A DNA stretch of 64,000 nucleotides. Source: Synechococcus sp. PCC 7336 (GTDB lineage Bacteria; Cyanobacteriota; Cyanobacteriia; Thermostichales; PCC-7336). Both the position numbers and the translations under genes were made by a program. The DNA is taken from contig NZ_CM001776.1 of the NCBI RefSeq assembly GCF_000332275.1, positions 3,165,737 to 3,229,736 on the forward strand, read 5' to 3'. The first letter of the stretch is position 1, and every line of letters starts with the position of its first letter. The notes under the pieces are model-generated. The model saw nothing but the letters and a program-made list of their open reading frames with translations, had not been told where the DNA came from and made no database searches. Positions 61,805 to 63,528 of this stretch are shown one piece after another.

Positions 61805-62005
61805 CTAGAGCGTATTTGGATCGATTCCCCTCTGTCGAAGTTTCTCCAATAGTTGTTCGCGCAACTGTCGTTCCTGCTGGCGCAACTGTCGTTCTCGTTC
61901 GGCCCGCTGGCTTTCCCGCTCTGCGACCTCTGCAGGAGCTGTCAGTCGATTCCTCTCGCGGTCGTACCAATTAAGAACTCGCTTGCCAGGAGGGCCATCT
62001 GGCAT
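61805..62005 (-). pseudogene. Uma2 C-terminal fragment
   Basis: Of a Uma2-type protein only the C-terminal 66 residues remain: NWYDRERNRLTAPAEVAERE followed by a charged helix and LREQLLEKLRQRGIDPNTL. The coiled-coil with an ending GIDPN is usual for Uma2 proteins in cyanobacteria. The nuclease-like core is missing, so it is a relic. Confidence 0.55.
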
Positions 62006-62055
62006 CTGTCGTAGGCTGAGCGCTGCTCAGCTAGCCACAATCTAGAAAAAAAGGG

Positions 62056-62103
62056 TGTGGCTGAATGACTCTTCGGAGGTTCCTACCAAGCTATTCAGCC
62101 ACA
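62056..62103 (+). terminator. Terminator-like hairpin
   Basis: TGTGGCTGAAT (62056-62066) and ATTCAGCCACA (62093-62103) form an 11-bp stem with a loop of 26 bases; A-runs lie on the left and T-runs on the right, so termination could be in both directions. Confidence 0.4.
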
Positions 62104-62177
62104 AGGGATTTTTGGATGCTTGTGCATCGCCAGAATGGGTCTGGACTCTTCGCGCACTCCCAACTGATTCTCACCAG

Positions 62178-62348
62178 TCAGTTCTGACCTTGAAGAGTAC
62201 AACTCCTTCGGAGTCGCTTCGCGAACGGAGACTCGCACACGACACGAAAACCAACATTGTTGTTGAAGTTGTCGCGCGTATTGTTGTTGCGAGAAGCAGA
62301 CCGGCAATTCTCTGGATTGTTGTTCCACGAACCGCTCCGCAGCAGCTT
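62178..62348 (-). repeat. DGR template-repeat-like, FGE-type C-terminal fragment
   Basis: On the minus strand the segment reads AMKLLRSGSWNNNPENCRSA, then SRNNNTRDNFNNNVGFRVVC. This is the end of formylglycine-generating-enzyme/C-type-lectin-fold proteins used as variable proteins in DGRs. Nearly all positions that are mutable in DGRs are AAC or AAT here, as expected for a template repeat (TR) or an unmutated variable repeat. The core is 62232-62335. It directly follows the reverse-transcriptase-like fragment on the same strand. The hairpin CTCCTTCGGAG after it resembles structures found near IMH sites. No body of an FGE gene is present. Confidence 0.6.
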
Positions 62349-62570
62349 CATTGCCCGCCCCGCTGTAACTCTAGCGGATTTGGCAAGCCGAGTTCCGCAA
62401 AGATTTTCTACCGCAGTCGCCAAGTATCGCCGTGGGCGAGGTGGGCATTCCAGCTTTGTAGACTTTGGACAACGTCGTGCTCGGAACGCCTGCCGCTGGT
62501 GTAGTCGGCTTCCAACTGCTTGAGGCGCTAGGGGGTTTTTGACGAAGCGATCGAAGCTGCTCATAGTCAT
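62348..62570 (-). pseudogene. Reverse transcriptase C-terminal fragment (DGR-type)
   Basis: In one minus-strand frame the sequence reads RLKQLEADYTSGRRSEHDVV, then QSLQSWNAHLAHGDTWRLR, a TAG stop, and KIFAELGLPNPLELQRGGQ before a TGA. The pattern (RL..L..Y..G......V..S.QSW..H..HGDT..LR) is that of the C-terminal end of DGR/retron-type reverse transcriptases. An earlier part (MSSFDRFVKN) is in a different frame. The polymerase domain with its catalytic YxDD is absent. The gene is broken by truncation, a frameshift and a stop. Confidence 0.55.
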
Positions 62571-62602
62571 TCTTATTAATGCTTAATGCTGCGACGATCT
62601 GG

Positions 62603-62637
62603 CCCTCACCCCCAACCCCTCTCCCCAGGGAGAGGGG
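62603..62637 (+). repeat. Partial copy of the dispersed hairpin repeat
   Basis: CCCTCACCCCCAACCCCTCT followed by CCCCAGGGAGAGGGG forms the first hairpin of the repeat. The left end (CTGAGTTCGAT...) is missing in this copy. It lies between the reverse-transcriptase fragment and the tandem array at 62637. Confidence 0.7.
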
Positions 62638-62712
62638 AGCTTGAGGAGCTAGGGGGGGTTGAGGAGCTAGGGGAGCTTGAGGAGCTAGGGGAGTTTGAGG
62701 AGCTTGAGCTTT
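62637..62712 (+). repeat. Low-complexity array of about 18-bp units
   Basis: The unit GAGCTTGAGGAGCTAGGG and variants occur about four times, ending with GAGGAGCTTGAGC. In both strands it is translatable to simple repeats (ELEELG; LAPQAP), so it is not evidence of a protein. It extends one arm of the hairpin at 62603. Confidence 0.75.
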
Positions 62713-62855
62713 GTTCTCCTTCCCCCAACATTGACACTGCTGGCAAAATTCATATTCGGCAACATTGGCCATTTGGTAAATGTCAGTGGCTCGCTTTCCC
62801 ACCAACTTTGGGAACACGGGAATCCACGCCTATCAAGACACTCGTGGCTGTTTCT

Positions 62856-62913
62856 CCCCTCTCCCCAGGGAGAGGGGCCGGGGGTGAGTGCAATGCAGAG
62901 CCACACAACTCAG
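62856..62913 (-). repeat. Partial copy of the dispersed hairpin repeat ending hicA
   Basis: Read on the minus strand it begins CCTGAGTTGTGTGGCTCTGC, followed by ATTGCACTCACCCCC and the first hairpin. It then continues with GGGAGAGGGGAGAAAC, as does the full element at 34426. The truncated hicA reading frame stops at this repeat (62915). Confidence 0.7.
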
Positions 62914-62914
62914 G

Positions 62915-62968
62915 TTATTCCAGAGCTCGGATGAGCTGCTTTCCCGTTACGTTTGGTTGTGGTGGCAT
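62915..62968 (-). pseudogene. hicA fragment (17 codons) truncated at a repeat
   Basis: Downstream of hicB, separated by 2 bases, an ATG at 62968 starts MPPQPNVTGKQLIRALE, the opening of HicA mRNA-interferase toxins (P.....GK.L...LE..GF). The frame ends in TAA immediately followed by CCTGAG, the end of the dispersed repeat. The rest of HicA is absent. The short peptide lacks the catalytic histidine, so no toxin is made. Confidence 0.6.
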
Positions 62969-62970
62969 CG

Positions 62971-63186
62971 TTAAATGACTATTTTTTGGATGCCGACAAA
63001 CTCTGAGCTGCTTTCTGGGCCTTCATCTTCGAGGCACAGGGCAATGACTTCGCGAATGTTATCGAGCAACTCGCCGAGGATCTCTCCCTGGCTGTAACAG
63101 GCGTTCAGTTGCGGGACTTCGCCGACGTAATAGCCGTCTTCGTCCCGCTCAATCAGCACGTAGAATTCCTGCGCTTTCTCGGTCAC
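62971..63186 (-). CDS. HicB-like antitoxin
   Basis: This 71-residue protein of the HicB family reads FYVLIERDEDGYYVGEVPQL, NACYSQGEILGELLDNIREV. It has the typical RNase-H-like degenerate fold but no C-terminal helix-turn-helix, as in short HicB forms. hicB comes first, followed by hicA on the same strand, which is here truncated to 17 codons, leaving an orphan antitoxin. The reading frame itself is intact. Confidence 0.8.
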   Translation of the reverse strand: MTEKAQEFYVLIERDEDGYYVGEVPQLNACYSQGEILGELLDNIREVIALCLEDEGPESSSEFVGIQKIVI

Positions 63187-63224
63187 GTCGATCGCTGGCC
63201 TTTCGCGTTTTGCTCAATCTATCA

Positions 63225-63528
63225 TTAGCTGGCTTTCTGCTGGCCGACCCAGCCGCTCAACTGGCGGCCTAATTCGTCGATGAGGCCACTGGCATACTCA
63301 TAGCGCTTTAGCTCGATAAGCTCGAAGTCGAGCAGGAGCCGCGTTTGGTATTGGAGGATGTCCAATTTGCCACTCAGCGGTTGCAAGCGGTCCAGTTTGT
63401 TGCGCGCCTAGCGGGCCAAGATGAGTCCTTACTGAGACATCGTAAAGTCCAGATACCATGCGATCGCCCAAATCCTCTTGCAGGAACTGGTTTGTACCCT
63501 TATAGCTATAATTTTGCCACGACCCCAT
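63225..63528 (-). pseudogene. Avd-like four-helix protein, broken
   Basis: One minus-strand frame reads YKGTNQFLQEDLGDRMVSGL as its start; another, from about 63410, reads NKLDRLQPLSGKLDILQYQT, RLLLDFELIELKRYEYASGL and IDELGRQLSGWVGQQKAS before TAA. The end of this second part (RYEY...DELGR.L.GW) is the pattern of the DGR accessory variability determinant Avd, though the 23S rRNA intervening-sequence four-helix family is similar. Stops and a frame change break it. It lies upstream of the RT fragment on the same strand, the order seen in DGRs. Confidence 0.5.

Follow-up and report, generated by a model that had tools for sequence, protein, structure and literature searches.

Anatomy of the Locus

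The window, i.e., the whole analysed stretch of 64,000 nucleotides from Synechococcus sp. PCC 7336, holds on its minus strand, between 63471 and 62053, what is left of one element. These are, in order, the C-terminus of an Avd accessory protein, the tail of a reverse transcriptase (RT), a template repeat (TR), and a structured RNA (Table 1). This is the usual order of cyanobacterial diversity-generating retroelements (DGRs), and upon locus comparison the same order, with nearly the same RT-TR-RNA spacing, is seen in the intact relatives L070 to L086. The nearest relatives of the individual pieces are in each case the same two intact DGR loci, L070 and L071, to which DNA similarity (blastn) extends over 63416/63471-63237 and 62528/62479-62053. 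Past 62053 that similarity falls to background, with about half of the bases there differing.

Table 1. Features of the remnant and of DNA found within it (window positions).
Feature	Position	Strand	Evidence
Avd remnant, C-terminal half	63225..63407	-	NCBIfam NF033474, Pfam bAvd, identity to L070/L071
HicB-like ORF, 71 aa, non-DGR	62971..63186	-	Pfam PF15919; no RT similarity
MITE-like dispersed repeat	62602..62891		inverted repeat and minisatellite; genome-wide copies
Remnant of a DGR RT (last 53 codons)	62369..62527	-	identity to L070 RT; class-wide matches
Template repeat (TR), AAC/AAT-rich	62232..62345	-	identity to TRs of L071 and L072; conserved adenines
Dispersed cyanobacterial repeat, short insertion	62201..62228	-	alignment with L070/L071; match elsewhere in G091
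Structured RNA domain (Sp-like), complete	62053..62200	-	covariance model R1; pairing; fold z-score

An earlier note on this DNA had viewed positions 62178-62570 as a decayed DGR in which an RT C-terminus is followed by a TR. Similarity searches and the loci of relatives bear that view out, with both fragments matching far beyond chance. The extent given was correct as to those two fragments but too small for the element, as the Avd upstream and the RNA reaching to 62053 both were missed. Nor does the open reading frame at 62178-62570 represent a gene; the RT and TR parts are in different frames. The locus as a whole is very probably a cyanobacterial DGR, of the type with FGE targets, which has recently been inactivated and which originally consisted of Avd, RT, TR, and structured RNA (and VP). 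Since the locus lacks the VP as well as the N-terminus and catalytic core of the RT, that original full set can be reconstructed from relatives only.

A group II intron identity was considered and rejected, with an Rfam scan of 61900-63500 returning no group II intron match and with the RT tail matching DGR RTs. A phage origin was similarly set aside, phage RT matches being weak only. Just past the RNA domain, at 61805-62005, is a small ORF (MPDGPPGKRVLNWYDRERNRLTAPAEVAERE...) which has no Pfam match above cut-off and which we take to resemble the C-terminal tail of Uma2-type proteins.

Remnants of Avd and of the Reverse Transcriptase

The Avd remnant corresponds to profile positions 51-103 of 104 (DivGenRetAVD, 2.1e-14; Pfam bAvd, 6.4e-7) and is 76-80% identical to the Avd of L070/L071. 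As this is half of a protein only, i.e., the C-terminal half, it falls below the 80-bit DivGenRetAVD cut-off. Similarity to L071 at the DNA level (blastn) nevertheless reaches 63471, out of frame.

The RT tail is 75% identical to residues 304-356 of the intact DGR RT of L070 (E-values of 1.2e-23 when searched locally and of 6.1e-21 genome-wide), and within the class it has matches in 69 of the 390 genomes. The tail had been described as broken by both a TAG and a frame change. The former, at 62410-62408, is indeed a true nonsense change, given that the nearest intact RTs have Gln at that position. The latter is no defect, as it falls between RT and TR and the TR is non-coding. Also missing is the natural RT stop, which would lie immediately ahead of the TR. 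That the RT catalytic domain is gone stands as previously stated, with only those last 53 codons, nonsense codon included, remaining. A DGR-type RT with catalytic core (the YVDD and GLPIGNLTSQ motifs) is found neither at the locus nor elsewhere in the genome. RT-tail-only remnants preceding an intact TR and RNA domain are seen as well in L129 (G042:C280) and L154 (G253:C42), and it may be that a TR promoter, or instead the 5' portion of the template RNA, lies in the RT 3' end.

Between the Avd and RT remnants nothing recognisable as RT is found upstream of those last 53 codons. What is present there is approximately 0.7 kb that is unrelated to DGRs and that holds two things. At the position expected for the RT N-terminus is the HicB-like ORF (PF15919, 4.1e-6). 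The other is the MITE-like repeat, whose terminal inverted repeats are each 38 nt long (87%) and which has a 9/18-bp minisatellite in its interior. Dozens of similar dispersed copies of this repeat exist across the genome.

Differences between the window and L070/L071 lie mostly at third codon positions in both tails (against L070, 28 of 48 in the RT tail and 35 of 53 in the Avd tail). Divergence from relatives thus was mostly gathered while the genes still worked, which argues for a recent death of the element.

A Template Repeat Rather than a Variable Region

Together with sequence downstream (62345-62200), the TR has DNA-level matches in 103 of the 390 genomes, the best at 88%, and the TR itself displays 85-88% DNA identity to the TRs of L071 and L072. 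Read through, it encodes an FGE C-terminus (SGSWNNNPENCRSASRNNNTRDNFNNNVGFRVVC). An FGE-type segment with AAC/AAT codons, as had been proposed, thus is present, though with a profile match to the FGE-sulfatase C-terminus that is weak if positive (Pfam, 2.6e-4, below cut-off). That weakness is what might be cited for these being chance neighbours, that is, a fragment of an FGE pseudogene which happens to lie beside a fragment of an unrelated RT. Such a view is almost certainly incorrect: It is refuted by synteny, the same neighbours occurring in the same order and with much the same spacing at many loci in other genomes, and against it as well are the conservation of TR adenines and the presence of an RNA domain at the expected place.

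Relative to the TR of L071, the window TR is changed at 4 of 32 adenines and at 16 of 103 other bases, and relative to that of L081 at 2 of 27 and 22 of 82, respectively. It agrees with relatives' TRs, that is, at least as well at adenines as at other bases. The previous suggestion that this is a TR and not a variable region (VR) holds up on that basis, the adenines being kept, and judging from its sequence the segment is indeed a TR. Separating it from the RNA domain is the short insertion, where relatives have instead about 10 nt and for which there is a 28-nt, 96% match elsewhere in G091.

The Structured RNA Domain

The 148 nt found 3' of the TR match covariance model R1 over all 153 of its positions (127.4 bits, E 2.8e-35), with a fold z-score of -3.8 for 62240-62045. 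The underlying alignment consists of 36 cyanobacterial sequences, the window included, each of about 150 nt and located downstream of a TR or variable region, with invariant blocks. In the consensus a long-range helix encloses one hairpin, and a further hairpin and a long terminal stem are present as well. Compensatory changes are seen in 29 of its 40 pairs, and 95.3% of alignment cells are paired versus 82.4% in shuffles, a level reached by none of 500 shuffles. With partners slid, pairing drops to 28-44% (40-44% if slid by a single column). The domain is found by model search in 107 of 390 cyanobacterial genomes of the class, and of the 69 loci inspected nearly all have it adjoining a TR or a variable region. 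The family has no match in Rfam 15, nor was a description of it found in the searchable literature, outside of which many journals lie, so that its novelty is provisional.

The window copy forms 38 of the 40 consensus pairs and differs from that of L070 by three compensatory double changes. That intactness, along with a last stem which in this genome is followed directly by a run of T, could be read as selection subsequent to RT loss, i.e., as the TR-RNA having been kept for some other role, as a regulatory RNA or as a terminator for a neighbouring gene. We consider this hardly likely. The element as a whole is little decayed, as seen in the codon-position pattern of the RT and Avd tails, and intactness therefore needs no selection, the divergence from relatives fitting recent death and residual selection on the TR-RNA alike. 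In addition, L070 and L071, in which Avd, RT, and TR are present, share the same two imperfect pairs.

As this cyanobacterial RNA holds the place that corresponds to that of the BPP-1 spacer (Sp), the simplest inference by analogy is of an Sp-like role, with the domain presumably recruiting RT-Avd and priming cDNA synthesis.

Search for Partners within the Same Genome

The earlier note had also suggested that a related RT, encoded elsewhere in the genome, might make use of the TR. The genome is a single contig, 100% complete. A full, intact DGR RT as query finds in it the above tail plus two RTs at 25-28% identity only. The genome's three RVT_1 genes were rejected as DGR RTs, as they carry SPQG, TPQG, and APQG motifs, which are of group II intron type; the DGR motif, GLP(I/M)GNLTSQ, is seen in 15 of 15 relatives checked. 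Nor is there a second copy of the TR in the genome at E <= 0.001, and hence no A-biased copy, i.e., no VR whose differences from the TR lie wholly or chiefly at adenines. Use of the TR by a related RT is therefore not supported here, and with neither a DGR-type RT nor an A-biased TR copy present, the element is dead. Of the signs looked for, RT and FGE profile similarity and matches across the class thus were found (that to FGE below cut-off), while A-biased repeat variants and a complete RT in the genome were not.

Two divergent FGE-domain homologues are left in the genome, L005 (C1:1240786) and L006 (C1:2978845), with up to 62-63% and up to 57% identity, respectively, to DGR VPs, identities among VPs being approximately 59-72%. 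L005, the better homologue, differs from the TR at 19 of 27 adenines and at 23 of 84 other bases, and the L006 C-terminus at 27 of 80 non-adenine bases, which is too many non-adenine differences for recent copies. These genes were rejected as living targets for that reason and are, at most, old VPs or targets. A more distant FGE gene, L007, was rejected as well. A transposase-like ORF (L005 648-1430, G000:C1:1239933-1240715) ends directly before the L005 FGE gene, whose open frame begins inside that ORF; an insertion may have truncated this VP-like gene or moved it.

Cassettes Lacking an RT

In intact relatives, which serve as positive controls, TR-VR differences are confined to adenines: 14 of 25 versus 0 of 94 other bases in L070, 17 of 27 versus 0 of 91 in L073, and 13 of 29 versus 0 of 91 in L076. 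The model was used to fetch 30 RNA loci, of which ten have no RT within 1.5 kb, nor was one found in wider stretches of up to approximately 7 kb to each side. The RT-less loci are mostly VP-TR-RNA cassettes. In several of these the TR-VR differences are similarly restricted, as seen with L121 (10 of 27 adenines versus 0 of 92 other bases), L155 (13 of 25 versus 0 of 99), and L145 (17 of 31 versus 1 of 96). Given differences that lie wholly or almost wholly at adenines, such RT-less cassettes in other cyanobacteria seem, from their sequences, to be served in trans by a distant RT. Use of a TR in trans thus is sound in principle, if without support from the present genome, and such cassettes make trans-acting DGRs testable.

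From a different perspective, the window itself might be viewed as a satellite, that is, as a TR-RNA cassette which here never possessed its own RT and which was used in trans by an RT located elsewhere. The cassettes just described are consistent with this, as are the RT-tail-only pieces found beside TR-RNA in L129 and L154. The Avd remnant, however, lies upstream and in the right order, and the genome holds neither a DGR RT nor an A-biased target, making a satellite origin very improbable next to that of an inactivated, once complete DGR.

Other arrangements also exist. In about 14 loci (L120, L123, L144, L147, L149, L165, L166, L168, L170, L172, L174, L177, L178, and L183) the RNA domain is found directly behind a VP variable region, without a separate TR. 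Adenines in these are depleted, with at most half of TR adenines kept. The L149 arrangement is Avd-RT-VP-RNA. Self-templating by the RNA-linked VR, as tested in L149, L144, and L123, is not supported, since the VR differences do not fit (17 of 121 non-adenine bases in L149). L151 (3343-4063) and L160 (3930-4636), by comparison, are full-length VP genes, with approximately 620 and 258 codons open upstream, respectively, and with 3' ends that are TR-like (Asn-rich) and then followed by the RNA domain, i.e., with the template inside of a complete gene.

Proposed History

In the working ancestor, going by relatives and by BPP-1, a transcript spanning the TR and the 3' structured RNA would have been bound, via the RNA domain, by RT-Avd. 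Reverse transcription would then have been primed within that domain, with the TR copied so as to place random bases opposite adenines, and the resulting cDNA would have taken the place of the corresponding 3' end in a target gene with an FGE domain. A deletion or replacement would subsequently have removed the N-terminal 85% of the RT along with part of Avd, the gap then presumably having been filled by the HicB-like ORF and the MITE-like repeat. The RT tail would have gained its nonsense codon, and the target gene would have been lost or moved. This order of loss we infer rather than observe. The TR and RNA probably remain intact because the loss was recent, with nothing in the genome which can use either.

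The remnant itself is ordinary, being of a well-known cyanobacterial DGR type, and it is the RNA family instead which is worth attention. On balance we lean toward the following: The 148-nt RNA may be viewed as representing a distinct, undescribed RNA family which, in the template RNAs of cyanobacterial DGRs, would serve for both recognition by RT-Avd and priming. This RNA, and not linkage to an RT, would be what defines a template, such that TR-RNA cassettes could disperse beside targets while being served in trans by one RT, with the window then representing a template left over after the death of its RT. The domain offers direct access to the question of template recognition by DGR RTs as well as a sequence-based way of finding templates that are far from any RT.

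Comparison with Known Systems

Bordetella phage BPP-1 likewise has a structured RNA directly 3' to its TR. This spacer (‘sp’) adopts a fold, and it both recruits bRT-Avd and serves to prime cDNA synthesis (PMC12875486), with Avd and RT as partners there as well. The two systems differ in order, which is Avd-TR-Sp-RT in BPP-1 versus Avd-RT-TR-RNA here, and in target, which in BPP-1 is the phage tail protein Mtd but here an FGE-domain cellular protein. A relationship between the two RNAs by sequence or model was considered and rejected, model R1 giving no detectable match to the BPP-1 spacer.

In Thiohalocapsa PB-PSB1, the RT genes of DGRs 4 and 5 have been replaced by MITE-like repeats (PMC10907252), much as a MITE-like repeat is found in place of RT sequence in the window. 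That organism, however, keeps further DGRs in the same genome, whereas Synechococcus sp. PCC 7336 is without any DGR RT.

Also close are the cyanobacterial FGE-type DGRs, i.e., those of Nostoc punctiforme (Npun_F4889-F4892), Nodularia spumigena (DGR1), and Anabaena 7120 (Alr3495/3497), which have the same FGE-domain targets and combine Avd with RT at a single locus. For Nodularia, a non-coding transcript has a strong start 199 nt past the RT gene on its downstream side (PMC3610870; see also PMC12691664). Among the cyanobacterial loci fetched here the TR directly follows the RT. Relative to these systems, the window copy is one which has lost most of its RT, part of its Avd, and any adjacent target.
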